In this document: positions 15,073-49,426 of the stretch, in pieces
Position numbering within the stretch: position 1 is the first letter of the stretch
Layout: the number at the start of each line of letters is the position of its first letter
Assembly: GCF_964355755.1 (NCBI RefSeq)
Contig: NC_092671.1
Coordinates: 3,731,001 to 3,795,000 of the forward strand
Direction: 5' to 3'
DNA from: Antedon mediterranea
Lineage: Eukaryota > Echinodermata > Crinoidea > Comatulida > Antedonidae
DNA length: 64,000 bases
Program-made: the position numbers and the translations under genes
The notes under the pieces: generated by a model
Databases searched by the model: none
What the model was told of the DNA's origin: nothing
What the model saw: only the letters and a program-made list of their open reading frames with translations

Positions 15073-17042
15073 AACCATTATTAAAATTATTTATTTTTCT
15101 TTTTGTACTGTGTTCTGTACAGTTTGTCTTTTTGTTTATTGAATAAAAGTGATTGAAACAAAATTATGATTTACTTATTCTTATACTTAAAATAATATTA
15201 ATGCATCCTAGACCCATAGTGAATCTGAAATAAACTTGTTAACTGTTGTTTGTATTTATTGTAATACAACAAGAGTGGGAAACTTAATTAATTAGACTGG
15301 GCGTCGGCTTCTTTCAAAAGCTAAAATCTTTTCGTTTTCCTACAGTATTTAATGAATCAATTATTGTTTAATTAAAATACTTATTTATGAGGAATGTGCA
15401 GATTTAGTGTCAACTTTTGTAACCTTGTATCATGACAAACGAACGAAACAATTGCTTTTTTAAGAGACAATTTCTTCACTCTTCTCTTCTGTAATGTTTG
15501 TTTTATGCGATTTTTGAACTGACGCAATGAAACAAAACATTTCTGGAATAAACATAGAAAGCCACATCGTGAAAAACGGTTTAGTCATTCCGTACTTGCT
15601 AATTATAATTTACAAATTAGGTTTTGGTAAATACTAGAGCTGAGTTACCGACAGAACAGGAAACCATCAAAGTAATAGTCTTTTAGTTTTAAGACTATAG
15701 TTAATCCATTATTTTATCAATTCATTTACACCATTTTTTTTACGACATGTATTTATTTTTCTTCCGAAATCTAATTACATCTTCGGGGTTGTTTTCATTT
15801 TATTGCTGTTTTGTCTGAATCCTATGATCGCTGTGAATACCGTATTGTTGACCGACAAGCACGACATAAAAGGCGGCACGCGCGAGTGTTTTTGTTTCTC
15901 TTTTATTCATTGGATCGTATAATCTATTAATTGAATGAAGAGTTTTTAGTTTCTTGATTTGTATGAAGCAAAGAAACTAGCGATGTATTTCCTAGGTGGG
16001 GAGTCGCATTGTTTCTTTCTACTCTCGTTATATTGTCTAGGTAGGGGTCTTGATTGTAAATTATTATTGTTTCTACAAGATAATTAATCGCGTGTACTGA
16101 TGGATACAATTCGCGTGGCTTGGCGGACATTCAACAATAAAACTATTTTTCATGTATATTGCATCATTTATATAATTTACGAAACGATAAACAAGTTTTG
16201 TTCAACTAAAAAAAAACAGGTCAATGATTTCAATCAACCACCAGTTTGAAGGTATACTGTAGTAGAAAATAAGTAAAATAAATAGTAAAATTTAGGCCTA
16301 GGTAAATTTATTTGATAAAAGAAAACATGCTTTTAATAATATCACTTTACAAACAAAGATATTTTTATTTGAAAATTGTATTTGATTGTGTTTTAAAATC
16401 GCTACAGTTATATTTTAGTAATGAATGTTTTATGCATTGGCAACTTTTAGATATTGACACTTATCTTGTAAAATTGTTTATTGTATTGTGGTTTGTGAAA
16501 ATAGTTTTCAAATAAAGTGGATCAATAAATCTTTACTCCGACCATTTAAAACAATATTTTTAAATCGCTTATTCATTTTGGATTGTTTAATGTAAATTAT
16601 AAAGAAATACTTTAGTAATTGAAGAAAACATCTTAAATAAAAAATGTAACTATGATCTATTCTTTGTTGAAAATGTGTGAAATAAATTGTATAAAACTGT
16701 ATTATACATTATTATATTATAGAAACATAGAAAAATGTGGTTAGGCCTACACACTGGAAACAAAATTAAATTGATATGTTTACCTAATAATTCGTTAAAT
16801 CTGTTTCGTTTATTTGAAACATCAAACAGATTCTTTAATATTTTGTAAATAAAGTGCAAGGCATAGTATATCAAAGATAGTATTGTCTCCCAAAAATATA
16901 AAAAAAGATTGATAAAAGCAGACATTGAATATTCCACTTTGCCGTGTTAATCAAGTTATTAACTTCCATTAAAAAAACGAAAAAATAACGATTTCACTTA
17001 AAAAATTACAAAATAAACGGTTAGGCCTAAACTTAACCAAAC
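15073..17042. other. Intergenic, downstream of the ASC-like gene
   Basis: AT-rich, with no recognisable exon. If the ASC-like gene at 17217-17741 has a second exon it should lie here or further left on the minus strand, but I cannot identify it. Confidence 0.45.
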
Positions 17043-17148
17043 AAAATTGGACCAAAACAATTATTTTCCTGAAAATAAAATAAGACAATTTTGCTAGTTA
17101 AAAAAATTACATTTATTTTCAGGAAAATAATTGTTTTGGTCCAATTTT
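17043..17148. repeat. Perfect 37-bp inverted repeat with 32-nt loop
   Basis: The arms 17043-17079 and 17112-17148 are exact complements (left arm begins AAAATTGGACCAAAACAATT). The structure lies at the 3' side of the minus-strand ASC-like gene, about 70 bp past its splice donor, so it is probably transcribed within an intron or alternative 3' end. It could be a very small foldback MITE or an RNA hairpin. Confidence 0.9.
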
Positions 17149-17216
17149 TGAATAAAAATATGTGTCATTAAAATGTCATATTCAACAACAGAAATAAAAG
17201 AAAATATTGTACATAC

Positions 17217-17741
17217 CATCGAATGTAAGTTGTAATGGTTCCAATTATTATACATCGCGTGTTGATGTTGTTGTTGTTGTTGATGTTGCTGGTGTTGTTG
17301 ATGTTGTTGTTGTTGAATCTCCTGCAACGCCCGTTGTCTCTCGTTTTCTTCATCAACCAACTGTTGCAAATGTAAGATATAATTTATTGCCGAACGTAGA
17401 GTTTTAACTTTGGAAAGTTTCTTATTTTTAGGCTCTGTCGGGATCTTTTTTCTAAGCCGTAAGAAGCCATCGTTGACGAGCTGAACACGTCGCCGCTCGC
17501 GTGCGTTTCGCCTAGCGACCAGGTGTGGTTCTTTATCCTTAGCACTCGTTGCCGCTGCTGAAGATTTCTTTTCAACATTTTCGTTTCGATTGGATTTGCG
17601 ACGTAGTTTATTCATCGAAGATGTTTTTGTTGATTGCTTTACTGTCTTTTCGATGGAAAACACTTCGGTTGTAAGTTCGTTTTCGCGTGAATTTAATTTG
17701 ACTTCAACGTTACCATTTACCTTCTCGATGGCCATTTTCAT
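17217..17741 (-). CDS. Achaete-scute-family bHLH factor, diverged, first coding exon
   Basis: This encodes a class II bHLH transcription factor of the achaete-scute family, expected in the nucleus as a dimer with an E protein on CANNTG sites. From the ATG at 17741 the exon gives 175 residues. The bHLH lies at about residues 76-130: basic region [14 protein letters not shown], then helix 1, a loop with [13 protein letters not shown], and helix 2 [16 protein letters not shown]. The E and R that contact the E-box are kept. A Gln/His tract follows (about residues 142-161). The frame stays open to 17094, but after HSM there is a good splice donor (ATG|GTATGT at 17216-17211) and the open tail beyond it is not protein-like, so the coding sequence probably continues in an unseen exon. 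It is less like ASCL1 than its neighbour and may be an ASCL3/4/5-type paralogue. No in-frame ATG lies upstream within the open frame; the ATG two codons on (17735) has a better context. Confidence 0.85.
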
Positions 17742-17960
17742 TCGATGTATATCGCTCGCAACTTTCTCCAGATAAATCAAAACAGTATTACCGATAGTCT
17801 TTAATGCGGATAATAATTTTCCATTACACCTATCAATGATTTTAATTATGAAAATCGATAAAACAATATCTTTACCTAACACAAATGTTTGCTAAATCTT
17901 TTAGGTATACGTTTACTGTGGATTCTCGTCGCTTACTGGCATTTTGCGCAAATTTCCGCA

Positions 17961-17970
17961 TCTTTATATA
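17961..17970 (-). promoter_or_regulatory. TATA box of the ASC-like gene
   Basis: On the minus strand this reads TATATAAAGA, a strong TATA box, 220 bp before the ATG at 17741. It predicts a start site near 17935 and a 5' UTR of roughly 195 nt. A CCAAT element at 18023-18027 is about 90 bp upstream of the predicted start, a usual spacing. Confidence 0.6.
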
Positions 17971-18022
17971 CAACGGTGTCAATAAAAATATCTTTAAGTT
18001 TCAACAGGCGATTTTATGGTCG

Positions 18023-18027
18023 ACCAA
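18023..18027. promoter_or_regulatory. CCAAT box upstream of the ASC-like gene
   Basis: CCAAT on the plus strand (an inverted CCAAT for the gene) lies about 90 bp before the predicted start. NF-Y sites work in either orientation. Assigned by position only. Confidence 0.4.
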
Positions 18028-19989
18028 TGATGGCATTCAGTTTCAGAAAACTCGTTGAAATTGTTTCTAATTGTGCCGTTCCCGACATCCTTCGTTTCCT
18101 GAATAAATCACTAAACCTGGATGATTTTAATTACTATATCTCAAATCAGGCAAGGGTTAATTTCCTAAAGTTTTTCATTGATACAATTGCTGTTTTGGTG
18201 AATCTATTGTTATCATTGCCATTCACACATTATTTTGAACTGGTTATGCGTGCGCACAAAAGCGCTTAAAACATCACATGTATAGTAGAACAATTGTAAT
18301 TAGCCCAACGGCAAACTTAACTCCCCTCTGATTCGCTTAACACTGACGGAAATTAGACGGCTTAGTGAGAGAGTGTGTATATTCGAATTAATTGATATAA
18401 ATACATAACGGCTCACTAGCTTGTTGATACATTGCCAAACAGGTTTATTGAAAATGTATAAGAAAACCAGAGATACCAACTTAGAACTTCTAATTACGAA
18501 GTATTCGGATTGTTAGCCGGTTAGATGCAGTATGCGACAGTAATTTGCAGGCTTGTAAGTGCGAGGGTATGCATGAACTTGGCGAGTCGACGACAGGTGC
18601 TTTTATTCAGAAAAGAATCTGATTTCTTTAGCTTTAACGATAGGTAACCTTGCAAAAATAGATGTCATTTCCTCTCTACGTAAACCTAAACAAATAATTG
18701 ATAATACTTCGAGTCGAAATCATCTGCTTCTTTATGATAAATACCTTCATCAACATTTACACGCAAACTAAGACGCAGCGAGCTATCGTCTGCAATAAAG
18801 AAAATATTTTAATACACGGCATAAAACAAATTATTACAATTCTGGAGTATTAATACAATTTAGAAAATGTAATGTATCACCTGTTCTAATAAAAGTTCAA
18901 GAAACTTCGTTTTCACTGAATTCATTTTCTGTATTTGTGACTGGCCATTGACTGATTTATTCGGATAATTTATGAAAACGCGAATAGTAAATACAATTAT
19001 GAATAGAAATTCATTTGGGGGACTTAGACTTGCCCCAAGTCTGTAGTTTTTTTTATGTTAGTTCACTAGTCGGATTTTTGATGTTTGAAAACTACAGTTC
19101 AATCTCAAGTAGTATGTAAGAAACGCCATATAAAAAACGCTATATAAAAATTGATCTTTTTACTAATATTATAAACTCCGCCTAGAACCCAGAATAGTGG
19201 GGTGCTGTGTACTGCCTCGGAATACGACTAATATTGTCTACAGTGTTTAGCAGGTACCTCTTGGTTTAAACTTACGTAATTAGTTATTTTTAGAATGTTT
19301 AGTACCTTGACGATAGCACCATCGGATATCCGATTCTCAGTGATGTATCTCCACGTTGCGCAATACATCACCTTTGTGGATCACATGATTATGGTTAAGA
19401 GTCTATGATACATCATATGTGATGTTGTATCAAGGAATTTGACTATGCAACTGAGTAGAATACCGAGAATCGACTACGTCGACAGCACTGAAGCTGTCGC
19501 GTGTCGTCAAATAATTCTAAAAATATTAATGCTACAGGAATATTACAGATACTGAAATCGACCTATAATATAAAATGGGGTTCATATTACAAACGTCTTC
19601 TAGGTTCAAATGTACTAATATCTTTGCCTTGTTTTTATCCTAGTTTCGGCATCAATTTCTAACAAAAATAAAGCCAACCCTTAATACTGATATTCCCTAG
19701 TGGGATGGGGCACCTTTCAAATCTTTGTATATACAAATTAATGGAAGCAAACTTTCCAACAATATTTAGGTCACGTTACTGTTTTCTGCTCTATTTAACA
19801 CAAGTCTTTTTCAATTTACAAAAAAAACGTCTTAAAGAGTTTTGTAGTTTATTTAGTTTGTTGGTACAAAAACTAGGCCTAATTGCCGAAAGCTTAATAT
19901 TTAAAATTCTTAACTTATGTGACCTGAAAACCAAATTGTAATGATGATACGACAGGTTGGTTAGCGTTTTCGGACGAGGAGAATGTTAG
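18028..19989. other. Shared upstream region of the two ASC genes, left part
   Basis: There is no coding exon. This DNA probably includes regulatory elements for one or both bHLH genes. A weak inverted repeat (TTATTTTTAGAAT at about 19286 against ATTCTAAAAATATTA at about 19513) with GATGTATC/GATACATC words between suggests a decayed 240-bp MITE. Confidence 0.4.
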
Positions 19990-20175
19990 GCTCTGACCAG
20001 GTAAAATGATTATCCAGCTTCGGCGATCACCCTTGTCAGCGACCTCTAATAATCGGCCACCTCTCGTAAGAGATAGCTTCTCATAATCGACCACATTAAG
20101 CGACGACCACCTCTCTTAAACAACCACTATCATCTCTTGTATCGACCAGACCACCTATCGTAAGCGACCATTTTA
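19990..20175. repeat. Degenerate tandem repeat of CGACCACCTCTCGTAAG-like units
   Basis: About eight imperfect copies of a roughly 20-bp unit with CGACCAC and TCTCGTAAG words run through this stretch. A similar but weaker run of CGACCA words lies at about 58290-58375. Confidence 0.65.
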
Positions 20176-22915
20176 TGTAAGGAAAAAAAAATTATCAGTC
20201 AGAATTAAAAAGTACTTAAGTGCATGAATGATGCTTTATTTATAAAACTGGTTCTTGTCTTGTCATCTTATGTGACGGACTTGTTTGCTTATTTTTCTTT
20301 GGTTTAAACTTGTTTTTGAAACAAGCTCAATCGATCCAACCCCTGGAAACTAACCTGCTTTATGATATCATTAGATACATTACTATAATACGTTCGATGC
20401 TGCAATACACTGCTAAAATAGCCGACAATCAGTATTACTTTTATAAATACAAATAAGCCAGCACATTTTGTTCAGATGTTTTATATTTGTTTCTGTTGTG
20501 TTCAATACGTAAGGTACGAAGAAAAACCGATGCCTCGGCCAAACATGTTTTCCCATATGAAGTTGACACGGGTACCGTAATAGAAAGTACCTTGTAATTG
20601 GGACTGTACGATCTGGGGACGTTGAGCCGTTGGTTAAACATAAAGCTCCAATTATAAAGAACCGAATATAAATACATTTGACAAGAAACACAAATACACT
20701 TATAAAATCTCAGGTTTTTCGAAATCACCACCACCAGAGACAATAGGCTTTTGTCACTAAGACATTCAACCTATACAAACAATAGACGAAGACGTGATTT
20801 GAACGAACAAACAGAAGATGTGCGCACAAAGGCGTAAAATACACATTTTATATAAAAAGCGGGAAAATATTATATCTTAAGCAAACAAAGTCAAGGTCAT
20901 TAACACTTATCATATGAAAAACATGCATTCTTCAAGATCAAAATATCTATTTAATTTTTTGGATAATTCATGGCTTGTGATTGGTCAAAATACTTTGGAT
21001 GCGCTGTCGTTGCATCCAAGTGGAAATCAGTGGTATGCCCCCCCCCCCCCCATCTCCCGTCTTTCTTTCTCTTTTTATTATAAATATTTAATCTTATCTT
21101 GCTAATTTTCTAACGTATAAAGTGTATCCATGTTTATGCTCTGTTTTGTCACGTTTGACTTAATAGATGAGAAAACCCGGATGTAAACTGTAATATACCA
21201 CTTACATTTATTTTTTTCAATAATATATTCAACCCTAAGCATAGTCACTTAAATTTTACGTAATACTGAATTAATGCAACCTAGCATTGTATATTAAGGT
21301 GCACTTGAATGGAACAATTATATAGGCCAACTAACATTGTTAAAACACTGCTTAAATTGTATTGGTATTTTGTTGTGCATAAGGCAGAACAACGACATGT
21401 TGATCTGGGCCTCCGTGGTTAAATAAAGTTGAATTGAATTACAAATTGCGATCGGTCACTGAGAGACTACAAAGTGTCTGTTTAATTTAGGAGTTTAATC
21501 AAACGATATCAAACAATTAATTGAAAATATACCGTACGGGAATTTACAAGGTTTTGCTTAAATTATAAATTACAGGACAAAAGTGAATGCTAGAAATAAT
21601 GAAGTTCATTTTTTGTAATTTTTATTTTTAAAAGCAGTTGGGTCAACAGCATTTGAGGTTTGCTGCACTATACATTATCCACCTCGGAAATCGTACGATA
21701 TTATGTATAACAGACACATATTCAACTGTACTCAAAGTAGTTTTTAACTTTAGTAATTTTTTTCTCCCATGTCTTTGGAAATTACTATTTTAAAACGTTT
21801 ACGGATTACCCTGAAGAAGAAGATATCTGGCAAACTACATAATTATAATTTCAATGTTGAACATTTTGTTCTTTTTTTATTTACATTTTGTATTTTTATA
21901 TATTTTTTTTGTATTTTGATATGTAGCCACCACTTAGTTTTCCACAATGAGGGATGAATAACATTTTACTGTAACTTTGATTTGTTGTTCATATATTGCT
22001 GTTTGTAACTTTTTTGCCAAATAAAATAAAGTAAAAACAAGACCTACAGTTTCGTGTCTCTCAACTGCAACCGTTCTCCCTCGCATGGGTTTACTGTTCA
22101 TGTTATGCATATAAATATTTCAATCAAATATTTAATCCAAACTTTAATAGATAGGAATTCTATTATCATTTATTTAATTATTAATATCACTTTTTATTAT
22201 TTAATGATTCTACTAAGGTACAAAACATACCTAAAAATTGTAAGATTTTGGCAAAGTCTTGTATCTATCTTGTATCTTGTAAATCCAATGATTATTAGTG
22301 TGTTTTTTTTTTACCATTATACGGGTGTTGTTCTTAACCGGTATGTCTACCTCGCTAGATTTTAACAACTGAACCGTTCCTGAGGGCCAATCTTACAACT
22401 GTGTGACTCGTTCAAACATCAGTGAAATGTCTTGATAAAAGAGCTGGTTCCACGTGCCTGTATTGTTCAAGGCACGCTTACACTAACGTCTCATTGTGTG
22501 TCCAATTCAATAGTACAACAAAATACCCTACTTTCATGCACTTAATGACCTAAAATCCCCAGTCAGGTAGCCTAGCGAAATACTGAGACCGCGTTTAGTG
22601 TCTCACAAAGAAGGTAATACTATACGCAACAAAATGTATTAAGAATAAGTAACCCATAGTAACTTTCCCAACACTTTCACAACAATGATCTCCATAACAG
22701 TTTGATGACTCTATTTTTTTATTTGAAATTTAAAAAATAAACAAATAAAAGCAATTCAGTTCTGTATTACTTTTAATATTTAGTAATACTTCGGTCGAAG
22801 TTTTCTTGTTTATTAATTTTGGTTAAATATCACTTTCATGAGAAAGCGTACCACTGTTAAAAAAAAAAAATTATTGATTTTATAATCAAAATGTATGAAA
22901 GTGGATCCGGCGATT
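20176..22915. other. Between the ASC genes, no gene seen
   Basis: AT-rich sequence with a poly(C) run of 12 near 21038-21050 and a retroelement-type 3' tail at 21399-21441. There is no supportable exon. Confidence 0.45.
21399..21441 (+). mobile_element. LINE/SINE 3'-tail fragment
   Basis: The sequence TGATCTGGGCCTCCGTGGTT followed by AAATAAAGTTGAATTGAATT resembles the 3' ends of CR1/L2-type LINEs and the SINEs they move, which close with AATAAAG and short TTGAA repeats. The 5' border is not visible. Confidence 0.45.
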
Positions 22916-23225
22916 CTAGAAAAAAAAAAAAGAATTATAGATGAACGGTAAAATAATTGAATTGAAGGAGTGTGGATCGTGCGAGAAGAAGGAGATACAT
23001 AATATGGAGGACAAAAGATGAAACGTATAGTATAAACAGTGTGGGGAAATAAAACAACAACATGAACAAAAAAATAGAGTGAGGAAGAAGAGAGAAAATG
23101 AGCAGAAGAAAGAAAATGGAAGAGTGAAGAAAAGAGAGAGAAAACAAGCGGAAGAAAGAAATGGAAAAAGTAGGAGAACAATCGAGGAGTGAGTTTTGGG
23201 AGAAAACAGTAAAGGAGACAAGATG
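22916..23225. repeat. Purine-rich tract (GAAGAAAGAAAATG-type)
   Basis: About 300 bp is almost only A and G on the plus strand, with repeated GAAGAAAGAAATGGAA words. The Phe/Ser/Leu-rich open frames on the minus strand are a by-product of this composition. Such tracts can form triplex DNA. Confidence 0.75.
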
Positions 23226-26200
23226 AGGTATAATTGGCGCTAAACCCGACTGCGGCTCGTGGCAGTTAACGGTTACACCGTATTGTCATCGTCAATTAAT
23301 GTATTCGAATTGGATAATCCTCTTAATGTATTTTGGCCTATTGTCAAATTTAAGGTGCTAAAACTTTAATTTTAGCACCTCATAGATTTCTAAAACACTT
23401 TCTGTTTAATAAACTCCAACCTGATTTTAAAATGTGTAATGAAAACAGGTAACCACCATTTTAATAATCTATAGGCCTAAGTTATTGAGAAATTGGATAA
23501 ATCAGCTGTCACAAGATAGATTCTAACTAACTATCGCAAGTCATCTGTTGAAACTCTCGCTGTATTAAATACTTTTACTACATGTAAGGATAAAGATGTT
23601 TGTGTTTAATAGTTATTTTATTATAATATATTAATATAGGGCCTATTATTTTTTATATAATTTTGGTGCAGTTGTTATAGTACGGTAAAAAAAACCATAG
23701 GCCTATAATAATAGGCTACACTCTTTTGATGCATCATTTGCATTACGACAATTGTACACTGGCCAAACGACAATAAATGAATAATATGATGCTATTGATA
23801 GTATTGTAAAAATGTGTTTTATAACTTTATATTTAGGCCTAACAGTGGTAGGTTGCGTTACACTATATAGGCCTATAGAACGAAATCGTATTTTTAAAAA
23901 CCATAATATTATAGCATTTAACGGTTACAAACAAAGAAGAACATAAAAAAGTCAACTTGAGATTAAAAAAAATATATAAAAGAAGTGACAAACATGATGA
24001 CTGAATTATATAAATGGACGTTAAGCCGAATATGAATGAATTAAATGGTTATAAAGGAGGAAAATCGGCTTATCGCGTGCCGGGATTTAATTACAAAAAA
24101 CACACAGTAAAATCCCTATCCTTAAGTGCAAAATAAAATAATAAAATGTAGTGTTTAAAACACGTCTATTCATTTGATTAGTTTTATTGAGTGGTTCATT
24201 TAGTTGGCATTTCGAAAAGAACCGCTCAAATCTTAGCTTGTATTATTGTTTTTGAGGATTAAAAGAAAACCTAAGCTTGTGAGGCTTATGAATGGGGTTT
24301 GTGATTGTGGACATTGGGATCATCGTTTCCAAAACGAGCCTCATTAGGAGACAATGCGCCGTTTAACAGAATAAAGATGACCCGCATACAGAGCTCACGA
24401 AGAGTAAATTAGTTCTATTATATTTTGGTCTAATGAACCCATAAAGCGAGCTAATTAACATGCCGTTCGCGCGTCGTTTTATTTATTAAAGGACCCCGCT
24501 TTTTTGTAGATTTGTTGTGTTTTGAATTTTGTAGGAGTGTAAGGTAAACCATGCTATCAGCGAGGAGTATAGTCTGCTCCATTGTTAAAACACGTGTACT
24601 TTGATTATACGATAACTGTTTTTCATATAAAAATAAGTACAGTTATGAATCAAGTTGTACTTCTACACACCATGACAGTATACACAACGTAAAGTACGTG
24701 GAACTAATACGCCTACAATCAAGTATTTTAGGCTCTACAAAAAAGTCAGATTCTGATAAATACGGTACGTCACGACTTGTGTACGCGCGCGTTCATTATC
24801 TGATATATACGTTACGATTTTTGTACGCGCGCGTTCAATATCTGAGAACTATTTCTTTTTGTTTTAATGCTGAAAATATTTCTTGTTTAATTTCTTGTAG
24901 ATTTTGTAATCGTAGTTCGTAACTAATTTTTTTATTTATCTCTTTCGGATCGACCAACTAGTATTTTTCGTATCTGTGTTGCCTCGCCTTGTCCTTTATA
25001 TCTGTTTGTTTTGTTTAGGCCAAACATTTAATAAAGAATGAAACAAATTTTGGTTTGTGTTATCAAAAAGTTATATCAATAATACTTAGTAATAAATTAC
25101 AATTAATTGGTGCCTTGATCATTTTGTATGTGGATAAATGGATTGCGCCCTCTATCGAATACATTATAAAACACTTCATTCAAACTCATGGAGGTGTAAG
25201 TTAGGTAAACAACAGTTTGCTCTATTGTTTAATATTTAATCAACTAAATTTAAATGAATGATCAAGCAACACAAACAACAATTACCGGTGTAAAGAATTA
25301 TGAGTATAAGATGGAGTATAGCGTGGTCTAACACATAAGAGGCATAAAGAACACAAACACATAATACAAACAGTACAAAGTTTTTGGAATATGATCTCAT
25401 AACACAAATAACAAAAGTTTTGGTAATAAATGGCCTTTAACTAATAATAAGTGGAATGTGCCATACACGAAGTTATATTGAAATCACTGTATACATAACA
25501 TATATTATTTCTCAAAAAAAGTACCGTAAGACATACTATATTTTTTGTTATATTTCTCAGTTCTTACGATTCATTTGTAACTTATATATATTTTTTATTT
25601 TTAACATTTTCTATTAATTTGAACACACTATTATTAAGAGATTTATTATTAAGGTATAGTAAAGGAAACTTAGAGCGGCGGAGGCCTAATAAAAAGAGCA
25701 TTGGTTCTTTATTTAAAGAACCGGGAGGTTTTGACAAACGGCATGACTTATTATTTTTTATTCAAACACAAAATAAGACTAGAATTTTTGATATTTTTAA
25801 AAAATTCATAAATATTTAAATTAGTTTGTTTTTTCCTATCGAATAACCAAACATGCAAGAGCTTTGTTGCAATGTAAACGTTAAAGTTATTGAACTTGTG
25901 TTTTGAGCAACAAGTTCAAACTCATGTTAAGCCATGGATAACCCATTGGCCATTTCTCGACGGGTTTTGGGGGGTGCGTACGGTCCTGGATTACTGGCTT
26001 CCTGAATTAAGACCAGGGCAAGAAAAGTGGTGATGCTAGATCAGGTTACTAGTTATACTACGCATGTATAGTGCTAGAAACAATCGGCCTAAGTACAACG
26101 CAAATAACCTACGGCTGATTAGTTCTTCCAGAACGCTTAACCTTTCTGAAATCCTCCTGAATGACAGCCCACCGTACGCTACAAAAAAAAAAACATTACG

Positions 26201-26290
26201 GAACAATTGTTAACGATTGATGTCGAAATAAATCAATAGGCCGTGGTGGGACGCAAGCCTCTGCACCAGTAAACTTCCACAATTAATAGT
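23226..26290. other. Upstream region of the ASCL1-type gene
   Basis: No coding exon is recognised. TAGGCCTA words are frequent around 23.4-23.9 kb. A hairpin GGTTCTTTA/TAAAGAACC lies at 25703-25722. Proneural enhancers would be expected in this stretch, but I cannot point to one from sequence alone. Confidence 0.4.
24772..24848. repeat. 42-bp duplication with GTACGCGCGCGTTCA core
   Basis: Two units with the core at 24781 and 24823 are followed by ATATCTGA-type DNA. The stretch ACGACTTGTGTACGCGCGCG is the reverse complement of the repeat unit at 13865, so the same motif family is present on both sides of the ASC-like gene. Confidence 0.7.
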
Positions 26291-26294
26291 CTGC

Positions 26295-26344
26295 CACGCG
26301 AACGGTGTTCGCTGATTGGTTGATAAGTACAAAAGGGCGGGGCG
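26295..26344 (+). promoter_or_regulatory. Candidate promoter of the ASCL1-type gene: CACGCG, inverted CCAAT, GC box
   Basis: Within 50 bp lie CACGCG (26295-26300), ATTGG (26315-26319) and GGGCGGGGCG (26335-26344). There is no TATA box in the expected place. CACGCG is the class C site bound by Hairy/HES repressors in achaete and ASCL1 promoters, so Notch-dependent repression here is a fair guess. The start site would fall about 26360-26400. Confidence 0.5.
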
Positions 26345-26346
26345 TC

Positions 26347-26397
26347 ATGGTTCGGCACGCTTTCTCGTACCTGAATACCCCGAAATGCCTTTATTAA
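26347..26397 (+). other. Possible upstream ORF (16 codons)
   Basis: An ATG just after the GC box opens a 16-codon frame closed by TAA before the main start. It matters only if transcription begins upstream of it. A second ATG at 26385 opens a frame that runs to 26540 and overlaps the main start in another frame. Confidence 0.3.
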
Positions 26398-26493
26398 TCG
26401 AAGATCTTTCAAGAGTTACCATTTTCAAACTTCAACAAGTTAACTTCGGTTTTACCTCTGCGACGTCCCAACTGGGAACAATTCTGAAACAAA

Positions 26494-27024
26494 ATGGAAA
26501 TGGAAAATTCAACAGTAAAACTTCTTGCCGCAAGTTGTAAATTTTTAGCAATGAACGCAACGAGACGTCCTACAACTGTAAAACGGTTGCAGAATCATCC
26601 TGAAGCACATCATACCGAGATGGTTAGATGCAAACGAAGATTAAATTACGGAGGAATTAACTACACCATGTCACATCAACAAACGGCATCCGTAGCAAGA
26701 CGAAACGAAAGAGAACGAAATCGTGTTAAGCTCGTTAACACCGGATTCGACACACTTCGTCAACAACTGCCGAACGGTTTGGAAACGAAGAAGATGAGTA
26801 AAGTAGAGACATTGAGATCTGCAGTAGACTACATTAGACAACTCCAGCAATTACTCGACGAAAACGACGCCGTCAATGCCGTATTCAATCCATCGTCGGC
26901 ATCACCGCCAGATTCGTCCGTAGGCAGTGCATCACCGGCGCATTCGTACGTTTCGGATCACGAAACTGGACCGTTAACACCAGAAGAAGAGGAACTTATG
27001 AGTTTTGCAAGTTCTTGGTTTTGA
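26494..27024 (+). CDS. ascl1: Achaete-scute homologue, ASCL1-type proneural bHLH factor
   Basis: This 176-residue protein is a proneural transcription factor. Family members bind CANNTG with E proteins, start neurogenesis and act with Notch in lateral inhibition. The bHLH spans about residues 68-122: basic region [15 protein letters not shown], helix 1 [11 protein letters not shown], loop GLETKKMSK, helix 2 [20 protein letters not shown]. The C-terminus [20 protein letters not shown] and the ending FASSWF match the conserved tail of vertebrate ASCL1, which also ends in a TNWF-like motif. The N-terminal stretch [12 protein letters not shown] is also ASCL1-like. The ATG at 26494 has a strong context (A at -3, G at +4). 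The coding region has no intron, but a donor (AAAAG|GTGAGA, 27041/27042) follows 17 bp past the stop, so there is an intron in the 3' UTR, as in vertebrate ASCL1. It is divergent from the ASC-like gene at 17217-17741. Confidence 0.96.
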
Positions 27025-27041: not shown

Positions 27042-27573
27042 GTGAGAATTTGTTTCATTATAATTTAATCAAATTAATCATTTTTAAAGATATCAACATT
27101 TTGTAAAATATGCTTTAATTCGTTTACACTTAAAATTATTTCGTTACGTTCTATTTTCAAATATAATTTTAAAAGTGAAACGTTACTTATTTAATCCGTT
27201 AGAAGCATATTATTAATAACTATCAAAGTGGAAAATTTAAGAATATGCGTACGGTTTAAACGAAAACAAATTTCTTTAAGTAGGTTCTTTGAAATAATTG
27301 GTTGATTACACGTGTAAATAAGAATTGCTAACACAGTCACGAATTCAGTTCACCGGAATTTACACATTAATTTGTACCTTAATCTAAAATTCAAATTTCG
27401 TTGAAAAATAACTTTCTGTCATCACAGACGATAAAAGATTACGTATAATTTTCTAACAAATTTAAAATTACTAGTAAAAAAAAATCAATTTAATAATTAA
27501 AAAAAATGAACAGAAACATAATATTTAATGCAATTTTTATCTAAATATATTTCTTTTTTTTCTTTGTTTTCAG
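27042..27573 (+). other. Intron in the 3' UTR of the ASCL1-type gene
   Basis: The donor GTGAGA lies 17 bp past the stop and the acceptor is a pyrimidine run ending TTTTCAG at 27573. The 532-bp intron is too close to the stop to mark the mRNA for nonsense-mediated decay (well under 50 nt). Confidence 0.75.
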
Positions 27574-37236: not shown

Positions 37237-37530
37237 TTAAAGATTTATTGTCCCCCTAAAAAAATATTTTTTTTAAATTTTTTTGTTGAATATGTTATTT
37301 TAATGTCACATAATAGTTATTCACTCTCACAAAATATTGGGTCTGAACAACATTTATTTACCTGAGAAAAATGTAATTTAAAGCAAAAAATGGTCAAATT
37401 GTCAGAAAGACAATGAGTTTTTGGGTAATTTAACTGTTTATTTTGTCTTTTTATAGGTGAAATAATTTTGTCCCCCGTTTTTTTTCTTATGGAAGTGAAC
37501 AACTTCATTAAAACTGCAAAATGGCCTATT
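37237..37530. mobile_element. TTAA-type MITE, truncated, between two tRNA copies
   Basis: TTAA followed by AGATTTATTGTCCCCC matches the end of the MITE at 49178-49426. The other side has the same inner sequence in reverse orientation (AACTTCATTAAAACTGCAAA) but has lost its terminal repeat. It separates the duplicated tRNA genes at 37111 and 37557. Confidence 0.6.
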
Positions 37531-37556
37531 CAAAGTGTGTAAATTAACCCACAACA

Positions 37557-42536: not shown

Positions 42537-43859
42537 CTAGATGGTACGCTCGCTTCGCTCGCGTACCATCTAGGTCGTATCCACATATGGTTCTCGAATA
42601 CACAGTAATTTCAGCGTCAAAAATGAACGTACCGCAGGACTATAGTACATTGTCGTTTACAGAAACGAATAAAAAGACACGATGATTTATGTAAAATTAG
42701 CACGCTAGGAATTAGGCCTTGTCTTAAAATTGAGTCCAATGGGGAAGAGGATGGGAAGAAAAATTTTTAAATATATTCTCTATCCACTCAGTAACGAAAT
42801 ATTGTTTTAAATGTTTTATAGGCCTATCAATATTATACCACTAAACACAGTAAAACATTTACGATTTATAATACTTTTTTAAGACTGTCTCTGTTATAGT
42901 CGATTGAAATAGTAAAGTTCATTCATTCATTCATAATAACATTTATTTCTTATCATTTCAAAGTAAACAAAATAACAATTTAAATATAAATAATTAAGAG
43001 GCAACACCCAGAAAGTAATAAAATTTGGAGGTTTCCCTCCAAAAAAGTACTTGTAACGATACACCACTACGACGTTTATATATTTTATAATTATTAATTA
43101 ATACAAAAACGTTGAGAAGCAACTGTCAGTAATCTATCCACAGTCACAGTAATAAATGTTCTTTGTATATTTTGTTTATATATCTAACAGTAACCGGGCA
43201 GTAACCACATTCACAGTAAGACAATTTCGATTCAAATGGCGACCAAAAATGGTTAATACGTACAGTATTTACAATATTGTCAAAGTATTGCAATACTATA
43301 TATATAAGTTTTATTCTCCAAGGGCCCATAAATTTACCTACTTGTGTTAAACCAAGGGCTCATTAATTTACCTACAAACTGGGAGTCTGAAAGATTGGAA
43401 TGTTCCATTCATCGCAAATCAATACATTTGTAAAAACGTAAATTAAATCTATCAAAATAGTATTTTTTTAAGAAAATCGGCCTGTCTTCAACATTATGAT
43501 GCTGTACTCGGGCAGTTCAACCGGTTTTCAGCTATTAAAAACAATTATCGTAGGAGGAGATAGGAAAATGCGAAGCGTCCTAGTATTATTGTGTGCGGGT
43601 ATTTTTCAAGTTGGACATCCATTAGACAGTGTATACCACGATCGGAAAACACCCCTATTTGGGGCAAATCGTTGAACCTAAATTCGTTTTAATCGTCAAT
43701 AACTAATTATCTAACTCAATTTAATTAGTAAACAGGGTTACATCAGGTGGTTAAAATCAGTACCGAAAGTACGAACCAACTTTATATACCATCGAGTAAA
43801 AATTCTAGAAATAAACCGCCATTTATCGAATTTTGCCCTTACGTAAATTTATATATAGA
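42537..43859 (-). mobile_element. Helitron-like element, copy 3, with nested insertion
   Basis: Both ends match copy 1 (hairpin at 42537-42573; TCTATATATAA start on the minus strand at 43859), and the A/T flanks are again present. It is interrupted by a 125-bp insertion at 42919-43043. Without that it has about the same length as copy 1. The left part has lost some sequence. It ends directly against a GAT/GAC microsatellite. Confidence 0.75.
42919..43043 (-). mobile_element. Short retroelement nested in Helitron-like copy 3
   Basis: This segment is absent at the matching place in copies 1 and 2 and is flanked by the 5-bp duplication AAAGT (42914-42918, 43044-43048). Read on the minus strand it ends AATAAATGTTATTATGAATG plus more GAATG units. 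Similar tails occur at 57270 and 63853, so it is probably a SINE or a 5'-truncated LINE. Confidence 0.7.
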
Positions 43860-44410
43860 TGATGAAGATGGCGAGTACTATATGATGAGGTTGATGATGT
43901 TGTTTATGAGATGATGATGATGATGATGATGATGACGACGATGATGATGACGACGATGATGACGACAATGATGATGACAATGATGATGACGACGACGATG
44001 ATGACGACGACGATGATGATGACAATGATGAAGATGATGATGACGATGATGATAACGATGATGATGATGACGATGATGATGATGACAATGATGATGACGA
44101 TGATGATGATGATGATGACAATGATGAAGATGATGATGATGACGATGATGATGATGACAATGATGATGACGATGACAATGATGATGACGACGATGATGAT
44201 GACAATGATGAAGATGATGATGATGACGACGACGACGATGAGGACGACGACAACGATGACGATGACGACGACGTTGATGATGACGATGACGACGACGATA
44301 ACGACGATGATGATGACGATGGTGATGATGAAGACTACGAGTACGAGAATGAGTTTGGAGGGAGTGGTGATATTGTTTATGATGATGGTGATAATGACGA
44401 TGATGTTGAT
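43859..44410. repeat. GAT/GAC trinucleotide microsatellite, about 550 bp
   Basis: An imperfect array of GATGATGAC-type units, starting where the Helitron-like copy 3 ends. All phases lack stops over long distances, which creates Ser-rich, Ile/Val-rich and Met/Thr-rich open frames that are not genes. Confidence 0.95.
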
Positions 44411-47079
44411 GTTAATGATAAGTTTTATTGTTTTCACATTCAGGAGTTTACTATGTTTTTTAAAGGTTTACCCTGAAATGTGGTATGCATTTCTAAAATG
44501 CATATTTTCAATTGTCCTACAAAACAAAATACACTTGGTCATGACGTTTATTCTTTTATATTTCACAATAAAAAAAAGTGATGCTCACATTTTAAAATCA
44601 CGATACGGACATTCACATCTAAGCCACAACAAAGGTACTTGTAATCGCGTAGGTGTAGGTTCACTATTTTTACATTAGCTATGCCTTTGTTATTACTATG
44701 TACTAAGCGAGTAACCTAACATCATTAACAAAAACTTGGTATTAAAATCGGCACACGTTGATTCGCGTACGATTTCTTGAAATCGGTCTTGATACGATTT
44801 ATTCATCTCATTAGTGCAATCAATCGAGTACCCTTCATTTGTAGAAATTCACACCGTATACCGAGGTGTTATACAGGTGCTATACAGGTATTATTAAACT
44901 ATCTAATTAGGTGTTAATTGTCTATTAAGACAATCAAAATTAAGAGGATAAAAAAACAAAAAATCGTGATCAGATTTTACGCGGGGAAATTGAAGGGGCA
45001 GCTGCGCGTAGAAATACAATATGACACGCGTGTCTAAAAAATAATACTGTGCTTAGTACGGTACTTGTAAATCGTATCAAGTGCTTTAAGCCAAAAGAAC
45101 ATTTAAACAGTCCGTGAAGCAGTGTGAATGCATATACCGCCCTGGAGAAAGTAGGCCTACGTAATATAACCAAAACTTCAATTGAATATCAGGTTTATGA
45201 TACCATCACTACTTTGATTTGATGATATACCGTCTGATACTAAACGTACTGTTTGGTTTAAAATAAAGTTTAAAGCATCGGCCTACAAACACGAATCATG
45301 ACATTTTATTTATCTTAAGGTGAATGTGCAAAAAATAATATTGTAATACAGAAAGCATGTACAGTTGACACATTTAATACCAAACAAAGTTCCACTTCAT
45401 AGGAGTGTCCCCTGATTCATAGTGTTAAAGTATATTTTCCCCCGTTCGTTTCACGGAAAGGTTTCCCCTCAGGGTGTCCTCAATAATAATAGGTGTCCAT
45501 ATAATATGATTACAGTGTCTATGTTTTCGTTGTGTGGTATGTAGGCCTACCTCATAAAGGGCTTTTTTTAGCGCCGCACGAGCTTGACGAATTTGTCATT
45601 TTTTCCAATAGGCATTATCCCGACAATTAAACAAGCCACTGTAATACACAGTGCCGTTTTGTATTTAGCCTTTGTTTTTCTTTAAAAATAGTGGAAACTA
45701 ATCAATATGCCCCATTGATAATTCATACTGTACACCATCTTCCTTTGTAGATTACTTTATTACTGTAACATCCGTATTGAGAAACTATCAATGGCTTTGC
45801 TAATCCGGTGATAACGCACCATCCACGCGACTTGATCACTCGCGACCTCCCTATACAGTAGGCCTACAACAATCGATATCAAACACAACAAATAATGATC
45901 GATTTAATTGTCCTAAATCTCGTATTTTAATCCAGTAACCATATTAGGCCTACTGATCAGTGTTTTTTACGTAACTCCATATTTTCAGGATTATATGAGT
46001 TTGGTAAAGAAAGGAATGGTCACGCAAGGGTAAAAAGATCGATGAAAAGGGTTCACAAATCGCCAAAATACCCCCAACTTGAATAAAAACAAATTAAATT
46101 TGGACAATAGACTTAGGCCTACGGATATAGGTAAAACAAAAGCCTGTTTTCTATTTACTGTTTCTATTGATATACCCGTCAAAACTTCTTTATGTTTTTA
46201 AAGGCATGAATAAATTAGACTCGGGTAAAACTAAGTAAGATTTAGGTTAAATACCCATGGAATCTATCATAGCACTGGATGAAGTGCACACAAAAGATAC
46301 ATCGTATTTTGACGTTAGTGCTATTAATACTGTGTGCAAATAAACTTAATTTGGTATGAGACGCCGCAAGCTTTTCTTAAACAATTCTAGAACCAATTGA
46401 CTTTTTTAAAGTGATAGTGAATAGGGGTTGTTCCAACTACCCCATGGCTGAGATCATTGTATTCAAAGATGGCCAAAGACAGATGTAAACGAAAGAAATA
46501 TTTGAATGGATTACAAGCGAATAACATAGAAAATAGAAATCTTGCATATTTTGTTCAATTTGTAAAGGCCTTCTTTAATCCGCGAGTTATTTCGGTAAAA
46601 CCGTGTAAATAGTTAAGCCGCCTTAAACGATATTTTCTTTGACTCTGTCCTATATTTTGGTCTTAGGATCAGGAAAACAAGAAAGAACGCGTAATAGATG
46701 CTGGGTCTTATTTATAAGTAGTGTTCGATCAAAGAAAATGCATGTCAAGTTGACAATGCAGTTGCACTATAAGACTTAAAAATACAAGAGAGGCTCCACC
46801 CACTTTGGCGACAACATTAAATTATGAACTACTTTTTATATTTGTTTTGGACAGACTATTAATATTTCGGTATACTTTAGCGCTCCCCGTTAAAAAAAAT
46901 CCTGGATCTTCCGCTCTCACGTCATAAGTTATTTATGGTAGTTATTTATTATTATAGGCCTATTACTTATGCAAATATTTTACACAAAAAAGGACTGAAT
47001 ACAGATAACTCGATCTTTTTCAAATTATGTTACTGGGTTTATAGGGAAGAGTAAAATTAGTTTACTCTAAAACAAAGTG
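44411..47079. other. Intergenic, no gene recognised
   Basis: AT-rich with several TAGGCCTA words at 45.1-47 kb and one dispersed GTGTCCC-type repeat near 45400-45510. Confidence 0.5.
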
Positions 47080-49177: not shown

Positions 49178-49426
49178 TTAAAGATGTATTGTCTCCCCAA
49201 AACATGAAGATTAATAATAAAAAGAAAATTTTGCAGTTTTAATAAAGTCAATCACCTCCGTAGAAAAAACCCCGAAAAAAACGTTTTGACTTATATAAAG
49301 ACAAAATGAACGGTTAAATTCAGTCAAAAACCCATTGACTTCCAGTCAATTTGACTTTTTTTCCGATACCTATTTTGGTCAAATGTTTATGCGACATTTT
49401 TTTTCACGGGGTCAATACATCTTTAA
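49178..49426. mobile_element. TTAA-flanked MITE, complete
   Basis: TTAA at 49178-49181 and 49423-49426 flanks terminal repeats AGATGTATTGTCTCCCC and GGGGTCAATACATCT. It is 241 bp between the TTAA sites with no reading frame. Its inner sequence recurs in reverse at 37480-37520. The TTAA target again suggests the piggyBac group, but the ends differ from the element at 14018, so it is a separate family. Confidence 0.8.

Follow-up and report, generated by a model that had tools for sequence, protein, structure and literature searches.

A small achaete-scute complex of two divergent genes in the crinoid Antedon mediterranea

Were proneural genes already clustered in early bilaterians, or have such clusters arisen repeatedly by independent duplication? 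Achaete-scute complexes have been described mainly from insects, and crinoids are sister to the remaining living echinoderms. A pair of genes in the crinoid Antedon mediterranea provides a concrete locus for this question. The window, by which we mean the whole 64,000-nucleotide stretch of DNA analysed (C2:3731001-3795000, C2 being the contig, in an assembly of 354 Mb that lacks COX1), has a GC content of 33%. A preliminary description had read in it two achaete-scute genes lying head to head. Both genes are present where they had been placed (Table 1); they are transcribed divergently and their starts are separated by 8.75 kb, in agreement with the 8.8 kb of that description. The presence of two or more linked achaete-scute genes in a non-random arrangement is itself observed, so that the small achaete-scute complex is real, and it is a fairly ordinary developmental gene cluster. 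We propose that the divergent pair originated by local duplication, that the plus-strand gene is of the ASCa type and the minus-strand gene a fast-evolving paralogue, and that both encode group A bHLH neural activators. To this reading as a whole we assign a probability of about 0.78.

Table 1. Features of the divergent pair and its surroundings (window positions; contig positions in brackets)
Feature	Position	Strand	Remark
Copy of a high-copy dispersed repeat	16870..17208	.	begins 8 bases after the predicted minus-strand exon end
Perfect 37-bp inverted repeat, 32-nt loop, within the dispersed repeat	17043..17148	.	sequence
Predicted coding exon of a divergent achaete-scute-family gene, 175 codons	17217..17741	-	ends at a GTATGT donor
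Gln/His tract of the minus-strand gene	17259..17315	-	sequence; CAA/CAT repeats
bHLH domain of the minus-strand gene, loop PTEPKNK	17364..17516 (C2:3748364-3748516)	-	PF00010; trees
Interval between the two start codons, common to the pair	17742..26493	.	8.75 kb; no other gene seen
ASCL1/2-type (ASCa) gene, single coding exon, 176 aa	26494..27024	+	ORF, PF00010, ASCL1 match, tree
ASCL1-type motif 5' of the bHLH, plus-strand gene	26620..26670	+	aligns with human ASCL1 LMRCKRRLNFSGFGYSL
bHLH domain of the plus-strand gene	26695..26847 (C2:3757695-3757847)	+	PF00010
C-terminal tail of the plus-strand gene	26974..27021	+	resembles LSPEEQELLDFTNWF of ASCL1
Probable 3' UTR intron of the plus-strand gene, AAG|GTGAGA ... 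TTTTCAG|GAC	27042..27573	+	predicted from sequence

Judged by its sequence, the plus-strand gene is the ASCa (ASCL1/2) gene of this genome. Its product matches PF00010 with an E value of 5e-18 and aligns with human ASCL1 (PDB 8ubk, 8ubk_O) in one unbroken stretch, residues 37-176 (E 8.9e-45), which takes in the CKRRLN motif, the bHLH domain and the WF tail to the last residue. This full match bears out the earlier description of an ASCL1-type gene with a WF tail. Identity with human ASCL1 in the bHLH reaches 78% over 65 columns. Trees were built from two sets of bHLH domains. The first, reference-only set joined the genome's PF00010 matches with ASCL1, NEUROD1, TAL1 and TWIST1 as found in solved structures. 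The second was enlarged by human ASCL2-4, FIGLA and the four fly AS-C proteins, whose sequences are not database records and serve as leads. In the reference-only tree the plus-strand gene groups with ASCL1 at 98/83. The likeness to vertebrate ASCL1/ASCL2 thus extends over the bHLH, the CKRRLN motif and the WF tail, and we know of no vertebrate ASCL1 or ASCL2 with a divergent achaete-scute partner 9 kb away. An intron in the 3' UTR is probable, with a donor 17 nt past the stop codon and an acceptor 532 bases further, both of them good; human ASCL1/2 are presumably alike in this respect.

Does the minus-strand gene belong to the same family? It lies in an open reading frame at 17891-17094 with its first ATG at 17741. 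Its protein matches PF00010 with an E value of 4.6e-18, ASCL1 is its best PDB match (E 2.7e-17), followed by TAL1 (4.5e-10), and the DNA-contact pattern RRNxRERxRV is intact in both proteins of the pair. In the reference-only tree, the minus-strand gene is sister to the plus-strand gene and ASCL1 together at 94/84, with an ASCL3/4-type gene, L013, joining next (95/76), while an 11-member ASC clade that includes both window genes is recovered at 99/97 from the enlarged set. Constrained trees that place it with TWIST (p-AU 0.004) or with TAL (p-AU 0.025) are rejected. A bHLH with an intact basic region and monophyly with achaete-scute proteins identify this gene, too, as an achaete-scute family member. 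The assignment of both proteins to the family, for which a bHLH phylogeny had been suggested as a check, is therefore upheld by these trees and by the PDB matches; the outcome named beforehand as refuting it, a minus-strand protein falling beyond the family, did not occur. The strong divergence claimed between the two proteins is equally apparent (55-57% identity in the bHLH), and the changed loop and Gln/His tract are confirmed in the sequence. The WF tail and the ASCL1-type flanking motifs are absent from the one identified minus-strand exon.

The adjacency of the pair goes beyond chance. A whole-genome profile search returned 46 PF00010 matches in 354 Mb; under random placement one would expect about 0.057 bHLH neighbours at distances of up to 10 kb, against the two observed (P 0.002). 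When the genome is searched with the plus-strand protein, the best other match is the minus-strand gene, at 57% identity; L013 follows, and then the bHLH genes at C2:3686103 and C2:3662292. Every one of these matches is on contig C2. That an adjoining gene should also be the best relative in the genome has a chance probability of about 5e-5, and it is this coincidence of position and kinship that speaks against a chance neighbourhood. Two unrelated bHLH genes that happen to lie side by side are thus an extremely improbable explanation: several other linked bHLH pairs exist in the genome, so that linkage alone is not unusual, but here the neighbour is the closest relative genome-wide and the clade is supported. 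Duplication would be the origin of such a pair. No convincing DNA repeat connects the two genes, and a recent duplication with common flanks was set aside. The preliminary description had called the duplication old, a claim that the trees do not sustain, since a sister pair of plus- and minus-strand genes is not rejected (p-AU 0.35-0.37).

Placement of the minus-strand gene within the family is broad: p-AU values are 0.42 for ASCa and 0.30 for ASCb or unforced, with an overall range of 0.30-0.43, and none of the subfamily placements (sister to the plus-strand gene, ASCa, ASCb) is rejected. After long-branch rows are dropped, the gene joins the ASCa set at 96/97. It may, somewhat doubtfully, be an ambulacrarian member of another ancient clade, either ASCc or a copy of ASCb, and the pair a relic of a pre-bilaterian achaete-scute/FIGLA array. 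This possibility is favoured by the position of the gene outside ASCL1 and the plus-strand gene in the reference-only tree, and by its branching before all ASCa genes once the long rows are removed. A third metazoan clade, ASCc, has been named beside ASCa and ASCb (PMC7489019). Moreover, L013 (C2:14424072-14424221) and two FIGLA-like genes share the contig with the pair, and the FIGLA-like genes bring to four the bHLH genes within 96 kb, an arrangement with P of about 5e-5 under random placement. These two genes, tentatively named (L014, C2:3662292-3662450; L023, C2:3686103-3686267), share a strand, with 24 kb between them, and are located 86 and 62 kb upstream of the minus-strand gene. They carry NARERERVSNLNSGFENLR, are mutual sisters at 98/89 in the reference-only tree, group loosely with FIGLA at 92/88, FIGLA being one of the sequences of the enlarged set that are not database records and lying on a long branch (1.53), and stand next to ASC at 88/73. 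In both, the exon stops at a likely phase-1 donor a short way past the bHLH. Weighing against an ancient clade, the sister pair survives the test given above, a fast copy could be driven outward by its long branch, and the ASCb slot of the genome is already taken by L013. The latter (ASCL3/4/5, ASCb; C2:14.424 Mb) is of the same family and chromosome as the minus-strand gene and 53% identical to it, but carries the EPSFIRRRNERERERVRCVNEGYARLRE signature, which the minus-strand gene lacks. It is unlikely that the pair, together with the ASCL3/4 gene of its chromosome and the FIGLA-like genes within 96 kb, is what remains of a tandem array of achaete-scute and FIGLA genes in the bilaterian ancestor, the minus-strand gene being ASCc, a third ancient lineage; were this the case, clustering of achaete-scute genes would go back to that ancestor and would not have originated with insects.

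We retain local duplication, with the minus-strand gene as a fast-evolving paralogue that keeps its DNA-binding and dimerisation domain intact. The 3' end of this gene deserves separate consideration. The mechanical reading frame continues for 40 codons beyond the GTATGT donor at 17217, but since the sequence from 17208 to 16870 is a dispersed repeat, the last ~35 codons are repeat and not conserved coding sequence. The repeat has 846 candidate places genome-wide, of which 40 were scored; it is ~340 bp long, and two further partial copies occur in the window (37263-37539 and 49180-49316). The inverted repeat inside it has a predicted fold of -49 kcal/mol (z -9.9). A candidate second exon at 17068 falls inside the repeat and was discarded. 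Most simply, the exon would end at 17217 with the repeat lying in an intron, so that a spliced C-terminus is likely. Of the spliced C-terminus proposed earlier, the donor after codon 175, with repeat beyond it, thus stands, whereas within 9 kb downstream no convincing second exon was found, the candidates having no ASC-type or WF tail. The same facts could be taken to describe a recent lineage-specific copy that is decaying towards a pseudogene, its 3' end truncated by the insertion of a repeat only 8 bases past the predicted exon end; the missing downstream exon and tail would agree with this, and so would a relaxation of constraint, to which the Gln/His tract and the altered flanks point. 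We consider such decay very unlikely. The bHLH is uninterrupted and scores 69.2 bits against PF00010, compared with 67.5 bits for the plus-strand gene, and a plausible donor at the exon end accounts for the repeat as intronic. Furthermore, every basic-region residue has been kept despite a divergence of ~45% from the plus-strand gene, which implies purifying selection over a long time.

How might the pair be regulated, and what might it do? The preliminary description had suggested shared enhancers. This is not supported by motif content: the intergenic region has E-boxes, CAGCTG, Su(H) sites and N-boxes at background numbers, with no enrichment, and an excess of CACGYG, considered as a hint, is equally strong in control regions. 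The two genes may nevertheless share regulation over the 8.75 kb between them. Both basic regions are of group A, and the genome has an E-protein-like gene (L038), with an E12/E47-type gene at C2:36.72 Mb as the E-protein, and an Id-like gene (L034), so that the ordinary heterodimer and E-box mechanism can be taken as the default. Both proteins would most likely act as group A activators paired with an E-protein; by the family default, the heterodimers would bind CANNTG boxes and start neuronal or sensory-cell fates under Notch control. The plus-strand gene may serve as a general proneural factor, and the minus-strand gene may have a restricted or modified role. In the sea urchin, the serotonergic neurons of the apical organ depend on achaete-scute (PMC6371548).

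Along contig C2, the order is the two FIGLA-like genes (3.66 and 3.69 Mb), a synaptotagmin-like gene, the pair (3.748 and 3.758 Mb) and a CDK4/6-like kinase gene (3.797 Mb). The C2 domains of the synaptotagmin-like gene extend up to ~3.6 kb in the window, and a Pfam scan of neighbouring open reading frames returned C2 domains and nothing else. A long GAT/ATC-type trinucleotide microsatellite at 43849-44678 gives rise to spurious open reading frames in several frames.

The preliminary description had also seen in the locus a small parallel to the insect achaete-scute complex. This likeness is fair in layout, especially to a two-gene complex, and may reflect either common descent or convergence. 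The loop is short here and long in the fly; the flanking genes here encode a synaptotagmin and a CDK4/6 kinase, from which the insect neighbours presumably differ. An insect ur-complex of two genes has been inferred, comprising sc/l'sc and a highly diverged ase within 50 kb (PMC1310631), and both it and the crinoid pair thus combine one well-conserved with one highly diverged achaete-scute gene in close proximity. Nematostella has bHLH genes in tandem clusters of 2-5 (PMC1828162); these similarly reflect local duplication without intervening genes, but they are lineage-specific cnidarian expansions, while the arrangement here is a pair with looser neighbours. A linked achaete-scute pair in echinoderms or hemichordates was not found in the open-licence literature, an absence that proves little. 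Vertebrate ASCL1/2 are neighboured by aromatic amino-acid hydroxylases. Genes of this type (PF00351), apparently three, lie within 48 kb at C2:40276292-40323637; a link to the pair as in vertebrates is weak, since 36.5 Mb of the contig lie between them and the pair.

Linkage of bHLH genes is more frequent in this genome than under random placement, with seven pairs within 150 kb where 0.9 are expected. A second close pair is formed by L013 and the divergent L032 (C2:14417591-14417752), 6.3 kb apart on the same strand; L032 has no clear family, its nearest matches being at most 44% identical. Other linked genes, named from domain reading, are a paraxis-like gene and Twist (58 kb apart, C1:18331193/18389691), two Fer-like genes (126 kb, C1:7835595/7962230) and two MyoD-like genes (66 kb, C2:8437357/8503555). 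Contig C2 also carries a compact run of 12 Hox genes in 380 kb (C2:7827797-8206132), including Hox4 and Hox6, with names given from homeodomain sequence. Hox1 to Hox11/13a share one orientation, and the two outermost posterior genes are convergent, face to face. Together with the GC content of 33%, such a Hox run fits a crinoid best and, less well, a hemichordate. The Hox cluster of Anneissia japonica is reported to comprise 10 ordered genes and to differ from that of hemichordates in having two posterior genes that face each other, in a genome with a GC content of 33.2% (PMC7351957); the face-to-face posterior pair is found in both crinoids, and the GC content of the window is close to that value.
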